Positions 12,119 through 36,429 of a stretch of DNA of 36,429 bases are shown here, in pieces. Under the pieces are notes generated by a model. The model saw only the letters and a program-made list of their open reading frames with translations. It did no database searches and was not told the origin of the DNA. Positions within the stretch are counted from its first letter, which is position 1. Each line of letters begins with the position of its first letter. Position numbers and translations under genes: made by a program. The DNA comes from Beijerinckiaceae bacterium (lineage in GTDB: Bacteria > Pseudomonadota > Alphaproteobacteria > Rhizobiales > Beijerinckiaceae). The stretch covers positions 1 through 36,429 of the forward strand of contig CANJWR010000027.1 of assembly GCA_947478455.1 (NCBI GenBank), written 5' to 3'.

Positions 12119-13216
12119 ATGAAACTTTGGGCGGGCGTATGCGCACTGGCGTTAGGACTGGCGTCTCCTGCGCTCGCACAGGACTGGCAGAAGGAATGGG
12201 CCGACACGCTCCAGCGCGCCAAGGGCCAGCCGCTCGTCCTCGCCGTCCATGCGCTTGAAGGTCATGCGCCCATTGTTGAGGCCTTCCAGAAGCGCTTCCC
12301 GGACATCAAGGTCGAACTGACCCTTCAGGGTCAAACTGTCACCGCCCCGCGTGTCATCACCGAACAGAAGAACGGCATCTTCGCCTGGGATTCCTGGTGG
12401 GGCGCGACCGGCAACATGACGACTGTCGTTCTGCCGACAGGCGGCTTCGACAAGATTACGGATTACATGATCTTGCCGGAAGTGAAAGACGCGCAGAACT
12501 GGAGCGCGCCCGACTATCTTTACACATCCGACAAGGGTTCCTATGTCTTCGTCCATACGCATTACGAGGAAGCTGCGGTCTATTTCAACAAGGGCGCGGT
12601 CAAGGGATTTGCGCCGGCCAGCATCGACGCTCTTGTCGATCCGCGCCTGAAAGGCCTCATCGCCATCCGTGACCCGACGAAGCCCAACAATGGCACTTCG
12701 GCTCTCGCGGGCGTCCTGAAGGAGAAGGGGCCGGACTTCGTGAACTACCTGTTCGGCCAGATGGATCCGACCGTGATCGACAATCCGCGCCAGCTCACCG
12801 ACGCCGTGATGCGCGGCGACAAGGCCCTCATCATCGGCGGCTCGCAGGACATCGTGAACCAGTGCCGTCTCGCCGGCGCCTGCGCGGATGTTTCCAAGCT
12901 GCCGTACGGGCGCTACGTGCTGTCGCGCGGCGTCGGGGTAATGAAGAACGCGCCCCACAAGGATTCCACGAAGGTCTGGATCAACTGGCTGCTGAGCCGC
13001 GAGGGGCAGGAGACCTATGTGAAGATCTGGGCGCAGCACAACAGCACCGGAGCGGTCAGCCTGCGCAAAGATGTGCCGCCCGACCCGAAGCACCTCGATT
13101 CCGTGCCTGACTACATGAAGCTCGACCAGTACCTGCTGATCGCCACGGAATCCGGCGAGGCCACGCTCAAGCAGGTGCAGTCGCTTTATAGCGCCGTTAA
13201 GGATCGCGCCCGCTAG
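12119..13216 (+). CDS. ABC transporter substrate-binding protein (first of tandem pair)
   Basis: A 365-residue periplasmic type-II binding protein of the iron(III)/polyamine class. The signal peptide is residues 1-20 (Lys2, then a Leu/Ala core, then PALAQ), and the mature protein begins near 'DWQKEWADT'. A GGGAGG Shine-Dalgarno sequence precedes the ATG. Recognisable family blocks include 'FAWDSWWGATGNM', 'DPRLKGLIAIRDP' and 'NWLLSREGQETYVK'. It is paralogous, without large gaps, to the next gene. It presumably delivers ligand to the fused permease and ATPase upstream. The classical iron-binding tyrosine pair was not confirmed, so an organic ligand is equally possible. Confidence 0.88.
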   Translation: MKLWAGVCALALGLASPALAQDWQKEWADTLQRAKGQPLVLAVHALEGHAPIVEAFQKRFPDIKVELTLQGQTVTAPRVITEQKNGIFAWDSWWGATGNMTTVVLPTGGFDKITDYMILPEVKDAQNWSAPDYLYTSDKGSYVFVHTHYEEAAVYFNKGAVKGFAPASIDALVDPRLKGLIAIRDPTKPNNGTSALAGVLKEKGPDFVNYLFGQMDPTVIDNPRQLTDAVMRGDKALIIGGSQDIVNQCRLAGACADVSKLPYGRYVLSRGVGVMKNAPHKDSTKVWINWLLSREGQETYVKIWAQHNSTGAVSLRKDVPPDPKHLDSVPDYMKLDQYLLIATESGEATLKQVQSLYSAVKDRAR

Positions 13217-13302
13217 AGCCTCTGGCGGCTTGCGGGTAGGTGATTTATTGTGAACCAGATTGCAAGCCGCGCAGAATGCGCCTGCATATTCGGAGGAAGC
13301 CC

Positions 13303-14403
13303 ATGTTGAAATCCCTGTCGGTCGCAATCGGCATCATGGCCGTCGCCGCCTTGCCCGCCGCCGGGCAGGATTGGCAGAAGGAATGGGCCGACACGCAGGC
13401 CCGCGCCAAAGGCCAGACCCTCGCCATCGCGGTTCACGGGATCGAGGGCCATGCGGCGCTGGTGCGCGAGTTCCAGAAGAAGTTTCCCGACATCAAGGTC
13501 GATCTCTGGGAGGGCAATCCATCCCAGTTTGCGCCGCGCGTGCTGACCGAGCAGAAGAACGGCATTTTCGCGTGGGACGTCATGTGGGCGGCTACATCGA
13601 ACATGACCAATACGATCATGCCGGCGGACGGCTTTGAGAAAATCACCGACTTCATGATCCTTCCCGAGGTGAAGGACGAGGCCAACTGGCGCGCGCCGTC
13701 CTATCTCTACACGTCCCCGAAGGGCCCCTATGTGTTGGTTCATTCCTACATGGCGGAAGGAACCATTTACCAAAACCAGTCAGCCATCAAGAATCTGAAG
13801 ATCGAGAATGCCGACGGTCTGCTCGACCCTCGCCTGAAGGGCAGGATTGCGGTGCGCGATCCCTCGCGCAGCAACAACGGCACCTTCGTGCTCGGCTCCG
13901 TGCTGCGCGAAAAAGGGCCGGATTTCCTGCAGAAGTTTTTCGCCCAGATGGAGCCGACCGTCATCGACAATCCGCGCCAGTTGACCGACGCCGTGATGCG
14001 CGGCGATTCCGCCATCGCCGTGGGGGCTGCGCCGGACACGGTAGCCCAGTGCTATCTGGCGGGCGGCTGCAAGGACATCCAGCGCCTGCCGTTTGGCCAA
14101 TATCTGTTCTCTCGCGGCGTCGCCGTGCTGCGCAACGCCCCCCACAAGGAGGCCGCAAAAATCTGGGTAAACTGGTTCCTGAGCCGGGAAGGGCAGGAGA
14201 CCTTCGTGCGCGAATGGGTGAAGTACAACGACAGCGGCGCCATGAGTTTCCGCAAGGATGTCGCGACCGATCCGAAACACAAAAGCTCGGAGCCCGACTA
14301 TACGAAGATGGATACCTATTTCATGGCGGGCGCGGACTCAGGCGAAGCGCTGTTGTCCAGCGTGATCAAGATGTATACGGACATCAAGAACCGCACGAAA
14401 TAG
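13303..14403 (+). CDS. ABC transporter substrate-binding protein (second of tandem pair)
   Basis: A 366-residue paralogue of the preceding binding protein, sharing the mature N-terminus 'QDWQKEWADT', the blocks 'PTVIDNPRQLTDAVMRGD' and 'SREGQET', and the same overall layout. The ATG at 13303 is chosen because CGGAGGAAG lies at 13291-13299 and the product then begins directly with a signal peptide (~1-21). The longer upstream frame would bury that signal. It sits 86 bases after its twin. The pair probably arose by tandem duplication, giving one channel two ligand specificities or affinities. No further transport component follows. Confidence 0.88.
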   Translation: MLKSLSVAIGIMAVAALPAAGQDWQKEWADTQARAKGQTLAIAVHGIEGHAALVREFQKKFPDIKVDLWEGNPSQFAPRVLTEQKNGIFAWDVMWAATSNMTNTIMPADGFEKITDFMILPEVKDEANWRAPSYLYTSPKGPYVLVHSYMAEGTIYQNQSAIKNLKIENADGLLDPRLKGRIAVRDPSRSNNGTFVLGSVLREKGPDFLQKFFAQMEPTVIDNPRQLTDAVMRGDSAIAVGAAPDTVAQCYLAGGCKDIQRLPFGQYLFSRGVAVLRNAPHKEAAKIWVNWFLSREGQETFVREWVKYNDSGAMSFRKDVATDPKHKSSEPDYTKMDTYFMAGADSGEALLSSVIKMYTDIKNRTK

Positions 14404-15024: not shown

Positions 15025-15759
15025 ATGAGCTTTTCGGCGTGGCGCGGCATTGCGGGCATCATCCATCCAACCCTGCGTCCCGGTGCGCTGGAAGAATTCA
15101 TTCGCCTTCTGCCCGAAGGCATCGGCGTCATCCCGCTGTTCACGAACATCACCAAGGGTACGCGCGAGGAATTCGGCACGGTGATGGACGCCTATGAGGC
15201 GCAGATTGCCATTCTGGCCGAACAGGGCTGCGACGCCATCCACCCGAACGGCGCGCCGCCCTTCATGGTTCACGGCCTCAAGGGCGAAGCAAAGCTGATC
15301 GACGGCTGGGAGAAGAAATACAAGGCACCGATCTTCACCGCCGGCCAGAACCACATCACGGCCCTGAAGGCCATCAAGGCGAAGACCATTGTTGGCGCGA
15401 CCTATTTCTCGGGCGAGATCAACGACACATTCGCCCAGTATTTCAAGGATGCCGGCTTCAAGGTGAAGGCCATGGAGGGCATCGACGTGCCCTTCAACAA
15501 GGTGCAGGAACTGTCGGGCGAGCAGGTCTATGCCCACATCAAGAAGAACTTCCTGAAGCACAAGGGCGCCGATGCGATCTACATGCTCGGCTCCGGCTGG
15601 CGCACGCTGAACATCATCGACATGCTGGAAAAAGACCTCGGCGTGCCGGTCATTCATCCCGTGCCCGCCCGTGTGTGGGAGTTCCAGAAGCGCCTGCATG
15701 TCAATGAACCGCGCAAAGGCTTCGGCATGTTGCTCGAAACGCTGCCGTCGTTGCCGTAA
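15025..15759 (+). CDS. Arylmalonate decarboxylase/Asp-Glu racemase-fold protein, copy 1
   Basis: A 244-residue protein of the AMDase/maleate isomerase branch of the Asp/Glu racemase superfamily. Visible are NGAPPF (75-80) at the first half-site, 'IVGATYFSG' with Tyr127 at the position of the AMDase oxyanion-hole tyrosine, and 'LGSGWRTL' (188-195) followed by 'LGVPVIHPVPARVWE' at the second half-site. The catalytic cysteines of racemases and maleate isomerase, and the single catalytic Cys of AMDase, are missing. The only Cys (69) is not conserved in the twin copy. A GGAGG ribosome-binding site precedes the ATG. It starts 72 bases after the cupin. It may bind a small dicarboxylate without racemase chemistry. 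Confidence 0.82.
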   Translation: MSFSAWRGIAGIIHPTLRPGALEEFIRLLPEGIGVIPLFTNITKGTREEFGTVMDAYEAQIAILAEQGCDAIHPNGAPPFMVHGLKGEAKLIDGWEKKYKAPIFTAGQNHITALKAIKAKTIVGATYFSGEINDTFAQYFKDAGFKVKAMEGIDVPFNKVQELSGEQVYAHIKKNFLKHKGADAIYMLGSGWRTLNIIDMLEKDLGVPVIHPVPARVWEFQKRLHVNEPRKGFGMLLETLPSLP

Positions 15760-16860: not shown

Positions 16861-17595
16861 ATGGCATTCACAAGTTGGCGCGGCGTCATCGGGATGGTTC
16901 ACCCGACGTTACGTCCGGGCTCGACCGAAGAGGTTATCCGTCTGCTGCCGGAAGGCATCGGCGTGCTGACCCTCTACATGAACATCCGCAAGGGAACCGC
17001 GACCGAATTCGAAACTGTCATGGCCGGTTACGAATCCCAGATCGCCATTCTGGCGGAGCAGGGCGTTGACCTGATCCATCCCTCGGGTGCGCCCCCGTTT
17101 ATGGTGCACGGCTACAAGGGCGAAGCCAAAATCATTTCCGGCTGGGAAAAGAAGTACAAGGTTCCGATCTTCACGTCGGGGCAGAACCAGATCACGGCGC
17201 TGAAAGCCATCAAGGCCAAGAGCATTGTGGGCGCGACTTATTTCCCCGGCGACATCAACAAGTCCTTCTCGAAATATTTCGAGGACGCCGGCTTCAAGGT
17301 GAAGTGCATGGACGGCATCGAAGTGCCTTTCGACAAGGCGCAGGAGCTTTCCGGCGAGCAGGTCTATGCGCACATCAAGAAAAGCTTCCTGAAGCAGAAG
17401 GGAGCTGACGCGATCTATATGCTTGGCTCTGGCTGGCGCACGCTGCACATCGTCAAACTGCTGGAGCAGGATCTGCAGGTGCCGGTCATCCACCCGCAGC
17501 CTTCGCGCGTCTGGGAAATCCAGAAGCGCCTGCACATCAACGAAGCCAAGACCGGCTACGGCATGTTGCTCGAAACCATGCCGCCGCTGCCGTAG
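16861..17595 (+). CDS. Arylmalonate decarboxylase/Asp-Glu racemase-fold protein, copy 2
   Basis: A 244-residue twin of the gene at 15025; the two align without gaps and are about three-quarters identical by eye. It keeps GAPPF (76-80), 'GATYFPG' with Tyr127 and 'LGSGWRTL' (188-195), and again lacks the expected catalytic cysteines. Its single Cys (149) is at a different place from the Cys of copy 1 (69). The ATG follows the orphan TctC gene by 18 bases and is preceded by a weak AGGGGA site. A terminator lies 27 bases after its stop, so it ends the operon. Two copies around one receptor suggests either a heteromeric enzyme or paralogues with different substrates. Confidence 0.82.
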   Translation: MAFTSWRGVIGMVHPTLRPGSTEEVIRLLPEGIGVLTLYMNIRKGTATEFETVMAGYESQIAILAEQGVDLIHPSGAPPFMVHGYKGEAKIISGWEKKYKVPIFTSGQNQITALKAIKAKSIVGATYFPGDINKSFSKYFEDAGFKVKCMDGIEVPFDKAQELSGEQVYAHIKKSFLKQKGADAIYMLGSGWRTLHIVKLLEQDLQVPVIHPQPSRVWEIQKRLHINEAKTGYGMLLETMPPLP

Positions 17596-32608: not shown

Positions 32609-35600
32609 TCAAACATGTTCCACAGCCACGATGCCGGGGATCGCCTTGATCGCGCCGGCAACCTGCGGACTGACCTGAAATTTTCCCGGCAGGCGGATTT
32701 CCACTTCGCTGCGATCGCGTTCGATCATCAGCACAAGCGAAACCTCGCCCTCGCCGCGCACCATTAACCTTTGCGAGATCGCCGGCAACGGCGCGTCGTC
32801 GCGCAGGAAAATCCGAAGTCCCTTTTGTATGCGGCTGGCGGCGGTTGCGAGCGTGTCGACCGCCACGATGCGAGCGCGCACATCTTCGCCCTCCATATTG
32901 GCCTGCAGGCTCACCAGAACCGCCGAGCCCTTTTCGAGCATGTCGCGATATTGGTTCAGGGCCTCCTGAAACATGATGGCTTCATACTGGCCTGATTGGT
33001 CCGAGAGGGTCACGATGCCCATCTTGGAGCCGGATTTGGTGCGCCGTTCCGTGCGGTCGAGAACCGTGGCGGCGAGTCTTGCGCCCGATGCGCCCTGTTT
33101 GACAGCGCGGGCGAAATCTACCCAGCGCTCCACCCGAAGCTTCTTCAGCACGCCTGCATAATCGTCGAGCGGATGGCCAGACAGGAAGAAGCCCACCGCG
33201 TCGAATTCGCGTTTGAGCCTTTCCGCCGGCGGCCAGGATTGCGACTTCGGCAGCACGAAGCCTTCGCCTGCGCCCGAGCCGCCGAACAGGGCGCTCTGCC
33301 CGGCCAGCGCTTCTTCCTGCACCCGGTTGGCGATGCGCAGCACCGTCTCGATAGCGCCCGAGGCGCGCGAGCGGTCGGGCTCGATCTCGTCGAAAGCGCC
33401 GGCTGCCGCGAGGCTTTCGAGCACTTTCTTGTTCACCTCGCGCGGATTGATCCGGTGCGCAAAATCGCCCATGTCGCGGAATGGCTTTGCGCCCCGCGTC
33501 GCCACAAGCGCTTCCGCCTGTCCGGTGCCGACGCCCTTCACGGCAGACAGAGCGTAATAGATCGTCAGCGAGCCGTTCTCATCCTGCCGCACGTCAAAAT
33601 CGACGCCCGAACGATTCACGGATGGCGGCTCGATGCGAATACCGAGGCGCTGCGCCTCGTTGCGGAATTCCGAGAGCTTGTCGGTATTGCCCTTGTCGAG
33701 GCTCATCGAGGCGGCGATGAACTCCACCGGATAGTTCGCCTTGAACCATGCGGTTTGATAGGCGATCAGCGCATAAGCGGCGGCGTGGCTCTTGTTGAAG
33801 CCGTAGTCGGCGAACTTTGCCAGCAGGTCGAAGATTTCGTCTGCTTTGGCCTTGGTGATGCCGCGTTCCATCGAGCCGCGCACGAAGCGTTCGCGCTGGG
33901 CGTCCATCTCGGCCTTGATCTTCTTGCCCATCGCGCGGCGCAGCATGTCGGCTTCGCCGAGCGAATATCCAGACAGGATCTGGGCGATCTGCATCACCTG
34001 TTCCTGATAGATGATGACCCCAAACGTCTCTTTCAGGATGGTCTCGATGAGCGGGTGGATGTAGTCGGCTTCCTGCTCGCCGTGCTTCACGGCGCAATAG
34101 GTCGGGATGTTGGCCATTGGGCCGGGGCGATAGAGAGCCACGAGCGCGATAATGTCTTCCAGACGGTCGGCGCGCATTTCGGCGAGCGCCTTGCGCATGC
34201 CGGCGCTTTCCAGCTGGAACACGCCGATAGATTCCGCCCGGCCCAGCATTTCGTAGGTCTTGCGATCATCGAGCGGTATTTTCGACAGATCGATTTCTAT
34301 GCCGCGCAGGCGGATCAGATCGACCGTGGTGGCAAGCGTCGTCAGCGTTTTCAGGCCGAGGAAGTCGAACTTCACTAGACCCGCAGGCTCCACCCATTTC
34401 ATGTTGAACTGGGTCGCCGGCATGTCGGACTTCGGGTCGCGATAGAGCGGCACCAACTCGTCGAGCGGGCGGTCGCCGATCACGATACCGGCGGCGTGGG
34501 TCGAGGCGTTGGAGTAGAGGCCTTCCAGCTTCTCGGCGATATCGAGCATCTTTGCGACGCGCTCGTCAGATTCCATCGCCTCGCGCAGCCGGATTTCGGT
34601 GTCGATAGCCTGTTTGAGCGTGACGGGCGCAGCAGGATTCTGCGGCACCAGCTTGGCGAGCTTGTCCACCTGACCGAGCGGCATTTCGAGCACGCGCCCG
34701 ACATTGCGCATGACGCCGCGCGCCAGAAACGAGCCGAAGGTGATGATCTGCGCCACCCGGTCCACGCCGTAGCGCATCCGCACATAGCGGATCACTTCGT
34801 CGCGGCGATTCTGGCAGAAGTCGATGTCGAAGTCGGGCATCGACACGCGTTCGGGATTGAGAAAGCGCTCGAACAGCAGACCGAAGCGCAGCGGATCGAG
34901 ATCGGTGATCGTCAACGCCCAGGCTACCACCGAGCCCGCGCCCGAGCCGCGGCCCGGTCCCACAGGAATCCCTTGCGACTTCGCCCATTTGATGAAGTCC
35001 GACACGATGAGGAAGTAGCCGGGAAACTTCATATTCACGATCACGTCGAGTTCGAACCCCAACCGTTCCCGGTAGTCGGTCTCTGTCATGTCGGGCGCGC
35101 AGCCGTGCGCTTCCAGTCGACGCGTCAGGCCGTCTTCGGCCTGCTGGCGCAGCTCGGCGATTTCGTCGAGCGGCGCGCCGTCGAGGCTGGTGAAGCGCGG
35201 CAGGATCGGCCCACGCGTGCGCGGTCGATAGGAACAGCGCATGGCGATCTCGACTGAATGGTCGGTCGCCTCGGGCAGGTCGCTGAACAGTTCCACCATT
35301 TCGGCGCGCGTCTTGAAGCGATGCTCGGCGCTCAACTGGCGGCGATTTCCCTCGCTGATGATCTGCCCGTCGGCGATGCAAAGCAGGGCGTCGTGCGCCT
35401 CGTAGTCCGATTGCGCGGCGAAGAAGGGTTCGTTGGTCGCCACCAGCGGCAAACTGCGTTTGTAGGCGATGTCGATCAGATCGCGTTCGATGCGCTGCTC
35501 TTCCTCAAGCCCGTGGCGCTGCAACTCAATATAGAGGCGGCTGTCGAAGGCGCGCTGCAGATGGTTGAGACGGACGAGCGCCGTCTCCGGGCGTCCACCC

Positions 35601-36073
35601 CGTGTGGCGTGGTCAATCGGGCCGGTGGGGCCGCCAGTCAGGGCGATGATGCCGGCGCTGTATTGTTCCAGAAGCTCGACCATCACATGAGGCGTGTCGC
35701 CGGCTTCTGAATCGAGCCAGGCGCGCGAGGTGAGCTTCATCAGATTGGCGTAGCCCTGCTCGGTCTGGCCCAGCAACACCAAATTGGCGCGCCCCGGTCC
35801 GGTATCGCCCACGCGGGCGCCAAATAGGGCGGCGTCGCCGAAATCGACCGTGAGCTGCATGCCCACGATTGGCTGGATGCCCTCCTTGACGATCTTCTCG
35901 GAGAATTCCAGCGCCCCGAACAGATTGTTCGTGTCCGTGATTGCCAGCGCAGGCATCTTGTCGGCCTTCGCAAAGCCGCTCAGCTTCGCGATGGTCAGCG
36001 CCCCCTCGCGCAGCGAAAAGGCGGTGTGGACGTGCAGATGCACGAACCCGACGTCCTTGATGATCCGACTCAC
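32609..36073 (-). CDS. dnaE: DNA polymerase III alpha subunit
   Basis: A 1154-residue replicative polymerase. The N-terminal PHP domain opens with 'HLHVHTAFSL' (His12, His14). The catalytic aspartates are Asp414 and Asp416 ('MPDFDIDF') and Asp570 ('KFDFLGLKTL'), equivalent to 401, 403 and 555 in E. coli. 'SFLARGVMRNVGRVL', 'QLESAGMRKALAEMRAD' in part and 'LSGYSLGEADMLRRAMGKK' are typical fingers and palm segments. Near the C-terminus is an OB-fold ('LSDQSGQYEAIMF'). GTG 36073 is chosen because GGGAG lies seven bases upstream; the TTG at 36133 has no such support. Length and motifs fit DnaE1 rather than the mutagenic DnaE2. A LexA-boxed small ORF lies just upstream on the same strand. Confidence 0.96.
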   Translation of the reverse strand: MSRIIKDVGFVHLHVHTAFSLREGALTIAKLSGFAKADKMPALAITDTNNLFGALEFSEKIVKEGIQPIVGMQLTVDFGDAALFGARVGDTGPGRANLVLLGQTEQGYANLMKLTSRAWLDSEAGDTPHVMVELLEQYSAGIIALTGGPTGPIDHATRGGRPETALVRLNHLQRAFDSRLYIELQRHGLEEEQRIERDLIDIAYKRSLPLVATNEPFFAAQSDYEAHDALLCIADGQIISEGNRRQLSAEHRFKTRAEMVELFSDLPEATDHSVEIAMRCSYRPRTRGPILPRFTSLDGAPLDEIAELRQQAEDGLTRRLEAHGCAPDMTETDYRERLGFELDVIVNMKFPGYFLIVSDFIKWAKSQGIPVGPGRGSGAGSVVAWALTITDLDPLRFGLLFERFLNPERVSMPDFDIDFCQNRRDEVIRYVRMRYGVDRVAQIITFGSFLARGVMRNVGRVLEMPLGQVDKLAKLVPQNPAAPVTLKQAIDTEIRLREAMESDERVAKMLDIAEKLEGLYSNASTHAAGIVIGDRPLDELVPLYRDPKSDMPATQFNMKWVEPAGLVKFDFLGLKTLTTLATTVDLIRLRGIEIDLSKIPLDDRKTYEMLGRAESIGVFQLESAGMRKALAEMRADRLEDIIALVALYRPGPMANIPTYCAVKHGEQEADYIHPLIETILKETFGVIIYQEQVMQIAQILSGYSLGEADMLRRAMGKKIKAEMDAQRERFVRGSMERGITKAKADEIFDLLAKFADYGFNKSHAAAYALIAYQTAWFKANYPVEFIAASMSLDKGNTDKLSEFRNEAQRLGIRIEPPSVNRSGVDFDVRQDENGSLTIYYALSAVKGVGTGQAEALVATRGAKPFRDMGDFAHRINPREVNKKVLESLAAAGAFDEIEPDRSRASGAIETVLRIANRVQEEALAGQSALFGGSGAGEGFVLPKSQSWPPAERLKREFDAVGFFLSGHPLDDYAGVLKKLRVERWVDFARAVKQGASGARLAATVLDRTERRTKSGSKMGIVTLSDQSGQYEAIMFQEALNQYRDMLEKGSAVLVSLQANMEGEDVRARIVAVDTLATAASRIQKGLRIFLRDDAPLPAISQRLMVRGEGEVSLVLMIERDRSEVEIRLPGKFQVSPQVAGAIKAIPGIVAVEHV

Positions 36074-36157
36074 AGCAATGCTCCCGAGAGAGCGCGCATG
36101 ATCGCGGATGCGGCCGCCCGCGTCGAGGCTCAACGGCGGCCGGTCAACAGAAACGAA

Positions 36158-36256
36158 TCAGACGCCGCCCGCTGCCTTCGCCAAGCAGGCGATCATGGTC
36201 AGGAAGGCCCCGAGGGACGCGAGTTCGGCCAAACCGGAAAGAACGCCACGCAACAT
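36158..36256 (-). CDS. Putative SOS-induced single-pass membrane microprotein (SidA-like)
   Basis: A 32-codon ORF on the minus strand, from ATG 36256 to TGA 36158-36160. It was read directly from the sequence because it is too short for routine ORF calling. The product has an Arg at position 3, a hydrophobic helix from about residue 5 to 25 ('ELASLGAFLTMIACLAK' in its second half) and a Lys near the C-terminal side, so it should be a single-pass inner-membrane peptide. GGAG lies at 36264-36267, seven bases before the ATG. A LexA box and a plausible promoter lie 33-72 bases upstream. Size, topology and control match Caulobacter SidA, a 29-residue SOS-induced division inhibitor. This is inference from architecture, not from alignment. 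Confidence 0.6.
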   Translation of the reverse strand: MLRGVLSGLAELASLGAFLTMIACLAKAAGGV

Positions 36257-36288
36257 ATCCACACTCCACGCTGTGAATGTTCCTGTAT

Positions 36289-36303
36289 GTTCCATGTATG
36301 TTC
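36289..36303. promoter_or_regulatory. LexA (SOS) operator, GTTC-N7-GTTC
   Basis: GTTC (36289-36292), seven bases, then GTTC (36300-36303) exactly match the direct-repeat LexA box of alphaproteobacteria. A third GTTC lies at 36279-36282, six bases from the second copy. The box overlaps the -10 of the putative minus-strand promoter, where bound LexA would block RNA polymerase. Confidence 0.7.
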
Positions 36304-36328
36304 TATTTTTATTCTCCAATCAAGGCAA
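36300..36328 (-). promoter_or_regulatory. Candidate promoter for the microprotein (and possibly dnaE)
   Basis: On the minus strand, TTGCCT (36323-36328) and TAGAAC (36300-36305) are 17 bases apart; each matches four of six sigma-70 positions. The start site would be near 36293, giving a leader of about 37 bases before the ATG at 36256. The surrounding DNA is AT-rich, unlike the coding regions. Motif evidence only. Confidence 0.4.
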
Positions 36329-36429
36329 GTGCGGCAAAATGGTAAATTTCAGTCAAGCCTTTGACACATATAATGATTATCTGACGCGGCAGCTATTGTT
36401 CGTCGGTTGGGCGTAAACGGCTTGGGACT

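Follow-up and report, generated by a model that had tools for sequence, protein, structure and literature searches.

A candidate SidA-like peptide gene between a LexA box and dnaE1 in a Beijerinckiaceae genome, and its relatives in the Alphaproteobacteria

A small ORF between a LexA box and dnaE1

The stretch of DNA analysed here (36,429 nucleotides, hereafter referred to as the window) is a Beijerinckiaceae contig that encodes DNA polymerase III alpha on its minus strand (dnaE1, 32609–36073; NCBIfam PRK05673, scoring 1437.8 bits, above the cut-off of 1002), with a presumed GTG start at 36073. On the same strand, 84 nt 5' of this start, lies a short ORF of 32 codons and a TGA (36158–36256, MLRGVLSGLAELASLGAFLTMIACLAKAAGGV), whose ATG is at 36256 and whose stop ends at 36158. 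It is preceded by a GGAG Shine-Dalgarno site (36264–36267, minus strand), 7 nt 5' of the ATG, and sites of a similar kind precede many of the relatives' ORF starts. The frame stays open 5' of the ATG as far as a TTG at 36319; the similarity of the relatives to this ORF starts at the ATG, not at the TTG. The encoded peptide is hydrophobic by sequence, with a single transmembrane helix predicted, and AlphaFold2 predicts one helix, spanning residues 2–28 (mean pLDDT 95).

A LexA box is present 32 nt 5' of the ATG, at 36289–36303 on the minus strand. In gene sense it is GAACATACATGGAAC (GAAC-N7-GAAC), corresponding to GTTCCATGTATGTTC (GTTC-N7-GTTC) on the plus strand, and it is kept in the genus, as described below. 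A third GAAC half-site (36279–36282, minus strand) is seen 6 nt past the second one. The window's genome encodes LexA (TIGR00498, 181 bits against a cut-off of 111), and its lexA gene carries the same motif, GTTCCTGATGTGTTC, ∼137 nt 5' of its ATG; GTTCN7GTTC has been tabulated as the SOS box of C. crescentus (PMC9578287). The exact pattern occurs 149 times on both strands of the 4.6 Mb genome, compared to 80 times for a reversed-pattern control, from which the chance of finding it in a stretch of 170 nt is about 0.5%. A lone box is therefore weak evidence, and it is the conservation of the box that carries the argument. Elsewhere in the genomes analysed (L018, G000:C9:42075–42108), two tandem GTTC-N7-GTTC boxes are present beside a gene that is radical-SAM-like by eye, and is likely a further LexA target.

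A sequence-only reading of this DNA had pointed out the 32-codon ORF with its ATG, the GGAG site seven bases upstream and the LexA box, all of which are seen directly in the sequence. It had also placed a plausible −10/−35 pair under the box. A strict sigma-70 scan of 36020–36429 returned 0 promoter-like sites, so that this pair stays a guess, and the promoter is not recognisable by consensus in the window. The best candidate by eye for a −35 element, possibly a weak one, is TTGATT (36318–36323, minus strand). A search of positions 35900–36429 against the described RNA families of Rfam gave no match at E up to 0.1.

In Pfam and NCBIfam, no above-cut-off match was obtained for the four peptides tried first, nor in Pfam for the Caulobacter BP25 ORF described below; one relative's peptide matches DUF3789 with an E-value of 0.011, under the cut-off of that family. 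The window peptide has no match in PHROGs, where the Caulobacter ORF weakly matches one family of no assigned function (E 0.072). With tblastn at E up to 1, no hits were obtained in plasmids using a relative's peptide as the query, or in phages using the window peptide.

The window ends at the end of its contig, and its last 88 bp (36342–36429) overlap another contig of the assembly (C140:11707–11794). Upstream of the overlap, C140 encodes a lolC/E-like permease and a lolD-like protein, in the same direction as the ORF; the best NCBIfam matches of these two genes are lolCE and LolD, both under the family cut-offs. The overlap (36342–36429) contains one mismatch, and C140 then continues for 115 bases of differing sequence (L002, 1589–1703), so that the assembly splits just 5' of the control region of the ORF, either through strain variation or through misassembly. 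In other parts of the window, two adjoining paralogues (12119–13216 and 13240–14403) resemble, by eye, ABC transporter substrate-binding proteins, and two closely similar 244-residue proteins (15025–15759 and 16861–17595) flank a gene resembling, likewise by eye, those of TctC-type binding proteins.

Conservation and selection within the genus

Searched at the DNA level, 39 of 61 genomes (that of the window and those of 60 relatives) gave a match. Among same-genus relatives, 28 of 36 matched at the dnaE start, and 27 of these loci were taken (L034–L060, with G018 left out). An ORF aligning to the window peptide precedes dnaE in all of these except that of G015, where none is found within 520 nt of dnaE, i.e. 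in 26 of 27; in one of the two nearest relatives, it would begin at a TTG. By eye, contig C27 of G015 (L319) carries the ORF after a lolD-like end and an exact box, with a hydrolase-like gene following it and dnaE absent; the contamination of this genome is 6%. One weak DNA match (G003:C33) was dismissed; it sits inside a large ORF.

I compared nine close same-genus pairs, with no locus in common, at synonymous and non-synonymous sites, as the sequence-only reading had suggested for the region upstream of dnaE. The ratio pN/pS is 0.128 for the ORF, and 2.6 and 3.4 for the two shifted frames. The 139 differences are distributed as 22, 13 and 104 over the first, second and third codon positions (p ∼3e-24 for the bias). 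The low ratio and the excess at third positions imply purifying selection on the protein, and judged by this pattern the window ORF is a real protein-coding gene. That reading had also staked its case on the frame persisting where the LexA box does, and the frame is indeed conserved in the relatives that keep the box.

The box itself was sought in the 110 nt before the ORF in the window's own locus and the 26 others. It is exact in 18 of these 27 and has at most one mismatch in 25, compared to 0.3% and 5%, respectively, of mononucleotide shuffles of the same upstream sequences. The best site ends 25–45 nt before the ORF start in 24 of the 27. Only one-mismatch boxes are present in the two nearest relatives (L034 and L035), and for L058 and L059 the one-mismatch sites are probably not the true operator, a two-mismatch site further up being likelier. 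By eye, TTGAC stands shortly 5' of the box in 16 of the 27 rows, and is absent from that of the window.

These observations bear on the trivial explanation, that of a chance ORF beside a LexA box, itself genuine or due to chance. Short ORFs are common, the window's promoter lacks a clear consensus, and the genome contains fewer than two copies of the box pattern for each copy of the reversed control, all of which would fit this explanation. However, chance would account neither for the codon-position bias nor for the recurrence of the ORF in the genus, the order and the class, and no antisense control matches the model of the family (see below). I therefore regard a chance ORF as extremely improbable.

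Distribution in the order and class

With a profile of the genus peptides, matches with E-values up to 1 were obtained in 120 of 199 genomes from the order. Many of the weak matches fall within long frames, and probably arose by chance. The best 29 loci besides the window's own consist of 26 short ORFs of the SidA-like type, with an exact box in 22 and dnaE downstream in 22, and three chance matches (L113, L117 and L119), which fall within long open frames and lack a box or dnaE of the kind described here.

A wider profile (A3), built from 40 peptides, some of them from the order, the class and the Caulobacterales, matches 84 of the 199 genomes at E up to 0.1. For 24 further hits obtained with it, a DnaE start motif is found 75–319 nt after the ORF stop in 21, and the box is exact in 15, with a best site of one mismatch in three and of two mismatches in another three. 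The remaining three (L359, L360 and L361) have neither dnaE nor a box nearby. L359 (27 codons, in G402) and L360 (31 codons, in G482) are SidA-like ORFs; both genomes have another such ORF before dnaE, and it is possible that L359 and L360 are paralogues outside SOS control; L361 is probably a chance match. Within the family to which the window belongs, matches to A3 at E up to 0.1 are limited to the window and G218, with none in six other genomes; on inspection, two of these six (G118 and G520) have a box and an ORF before dnaE. No box was found at the dnaE locus of G298. In the genus g284 (L110, L116, L121, L346, L351 and L352), no exact box precedes the ORFs, and L121 (and L110, by eye) reads GAAC-N7-ATAC, as if the second half-site had changed in this genus.

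In a sample of the class, 281 of 289 genomes have a DnaE start, and 110 loci were examined, including the window and one locus of only 203 nt. An exact box in gene sense is present within 700 nt of dnaE in 21 of the 110, and absent from the other 89. I searched the 90 nt past the box for starts of ORFs of 24–60 codons that have an ATG and a Shine-Dalgarno site and encode a hydrophobic helix. Such a one-helix ORF is found at 19 of the 21 boxed loci, compared to 1.1% of 1848 matched control windows taken from the other 89. The remaining two boxed loci (L075 and L085) match the profile, among whose rows are their own cores or a near-identical one. Seven of the 21 boxed peptides (L070, L072, L082, L125, L146, L148 and L177) have no individual profile match at E up to 0.05. 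At five class loci (L154, L159, L182, L188 and L189), the only box close to dnaE is in the opposite sense, and an ORF of this kind is absent. The unit formed by a LexA box, a one-helix ORF and dnaE is thus widespread in the class, with a patchy and not universal distribution.

The recurrent neighbourhood raises the question of whether the box serves dnaE1, the small ORF being a leader whose translation does no more than adjust dnaE expression. In agreement with this, dnaE is within ∼800 nt of the ORF start in 22 of the 26 order loci and in 21 of the 24 further ones, such that the genes may share a transcript, and a single weak terminator-like site was found near the ORF and dnaE1 (0.4 expected). 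However, it is the amino acids that are conserved, not merely the codons or the RNA, the one-helix motif is kept between distant groups, and no Rfam family was matched. The G015 locus L319 also has the box and the ORF without dnaE, in a genome with the contamination mentioned above, and the matching Caulobacter gene has a division phenotype of its own (PMC4211646). Because of the selection pattern and the G015 locus, I consider a leader-peptide role unlikely.

Relationship to SidA and proposed function

In Caulobacter, SidA is a 29-residue inner-membrane protein that blocks division, acting on FtsW (PMC4211646), and is LexA-regulated (PMC12700426). The sequence-only reading had stated that standard ORF callers miss such genes; that of SidA does carry a locus tag, CCNA_02004 (PMC10769358). 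CCNA_02005 is an inosine-uridine preferring nucleoside hydrolase (PMC3667746), and the first dnaE of Caulobacter is CC1926 (PMC1839093). As a comparison partner standing in for the published SidA letters, I used the Caulobacterales ORFs found in the same slot. No genome of the class sample has a DivK identity above 83%, and a search for Caulobacter in the order of G163 covered only three genomes. Named Caulobacterales were found by a DivK search of genome contigs; thirty genomes were chosen, with a DnaE match in 29, the one miss being a C. vibrioides MAG.

At the Caulobacter, Brevundimonas, Phenylobacterium and Asticcacaulis loci examined, an ORF of 28–31 residues, counted from the chosen start, lies directly before dnaE. 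In Caulobacter sp. BP25, it encodes 29 residues from the second ATG, after a GGAGG, of a 40-codon frame (L316), and is located between an inosine-uridine nucleoside hydrolase gene (PF01156 IU_nuc_hydro, E 4.8e-80) and dnaE. Given the adjacency of CCNA_02004 and CCNA_02005, the same hydrolase-ORF-dnaE order and the length of 29 residues, the BP25 ORF is almost certainly sidA, as identified by position and length.

The window peptide and the BP25 ORF are only 21% identical. I compared profiles, with permutations of the columns, except for the first three, serving as controls. The genus profile aligns to that of the Caulobacterales over 28 columns, with an E-value of 1.3e-4 and a score of 20.2 that none of 300 permutations reaches, by a narrow margin (maximum 19.7). 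With an order-wide profile (45 rows), the score is 24.1, and again none of 300 permutations reaches it (mean 10.4, maximum 18.6). A third group, consisting of 18 class peptides, of which one belongs to the family of the window, and a peptide from a named Parvibaculaceae, matches both profiles, with 0 of 150 permutations reaching the score in each case. The 40-peptide profile (A3) matches 26 of the 29 named dnaE upstream regions at E up to 0.01, many of the named peptides being in the model or close to its rows, and none of 139 antisense controls. At E up to 0.1 there are 27 named matches, with an exact box in 18. Matches from outside the rows of the model were obtained for Maricaulis (2.9e-5), Stappia (0.0036) and Roseibium (5.1e-5), and weakly for Woodsholea (0.051); with the same model, no ORF of this family was found upstream of dnaE in Methyloceanibacter and Robiginitomaculum. 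The peptides have in common a short basic start, a D or E before the helix, an A-L-x-[SA] motif and a nearly constant central F, often with an M or W further on. Taken at the profile level, this evidence indicates that the window family is homologous to the Caulobacterales ORFs of the sidA slot, going beyond a functional counterpart.

I therefore propose that the window ORF is an orthologue of Caulobacter sidA, encoding a LexA-controlled inhibitor of FtsW-dependent division. This appears quite likely, since the ORF occupies the same place, has the same box and a similar size, and encodes one predicted helix with significant profile similarity. The sequence-only reading had seen in it a SidA counterpart from another order, which the same features support, its activity being assigned by analogy.

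A similar combination of features would be found in membrane peptides of the TisB kind, which are SOS-induced, depolarise the membrane and promote persistence, and the window peptide could be one of these, without any block of FtsW. The size, the single helix and the LexA control all fit such peptides. In contrast, the homology and the position point to SidA, and the frequent D or E before the helix, together with the nearly constant F in its middle, suggest contact with a protein. No family was found in this region among the RNA families described in Rfam. Because of the homology, a TisB-like role seems improbable.

The likeness to C. crescentus SidA includes the location directly before dnaE, the LexA box, the length of ∼30 residues, the single helix with a basic start, and a profile similarity above all permuted controls. 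Differences are also seen: the window peptide is three residues longer than the 29-residue form, with the low identity to the BP25 ORF given above, and has a K near its C-terminus, without the W of the FVWMM stretch of Caulobacter. YneA, SosA and ChiZ, from Gram-positive bacteria and mycobacteria, are likewise DNA-damage-induced membrane division inhibitors, and are larger proteins. Their proposed point of action is FtsW or a late stage of division, and in low-confidence models from a 2026 paper SidA was placed against TM7 of FtsW, on the side opposite to that bound by YneA, SosA and ChiZ (PMC13396833). Caulobacter DidA (CCNA03212) is also a small one-helix division inhibitor on FtsW/FtsI/FtsN (PMC4211646); it differs in being 71 residues long, in binding FtsN, and in being induced by DriD independently of SOS. 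E. coli SulA is an SOS-induced division inhibitor as well, which differs in acting on FtsZ, and has been described as not widely conserved beyond gammaproteobacteria (PMC4211646).

From the sequences, the gene and the purifying selection on it, the box, the presence of LexA, the position, and the homology to the Caulobacter slot ORF can be read. Building on these, LexA bound to GAAC-N7-GAAC would hold the promoter of the ORF shut. Upon DNA damage, RecA would trigger the self-cleavage of LexA and the ORF would be transcribed, with the transcript perhaps running on into dnaE1. The 32-residue, one-helix peptide would enter the inner membrane and hold FtsW/FtsI/FtsN inactive, delaying division until the damage is repaired. 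For the window organism, the expression, the membrane insertion, the FtsW target and the division phenotype are those expected by analogy with Caulobacter.

In the literature searched, there is no report of SidA outside the Caulobacterales (the original 2011 description, which was outside this search, may discuss its distribution), and SOS division arrest in alphaproteobacteria is not described outside Caulobacter. Proteins of the SidA kind are known; as far as can be told, the novelty lies in how widely they occur, in their repeated location 5' of dnaE, and in the possibility that division and the replicative polymerase are controlled together. With this locus, a defined candidate for a division-arrest gene becomes available in many genera, as does a varied set of aligned sequences for a 30-residue peptide whose likely target is FtsW. 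SidA-like genes can also be sought simply, by looking from a LexA box towards dnaE. A further question that arises is whether dnaE1 is transcribed in the SOS response from the promoter of the SidA-like ORF. I consider it possible, if somewhat less likely than not, that the LexA box-sidA-dnaE1 unit is ancestral to much of the Alphaproteobacteria. The SidA checkpoint would then be the standard answer of this class to DNA damage, not a peculiarity of Caulobacter, and a single LexA promoter would govern the inhibition of division together with the amount of replicative polymerase supplied.
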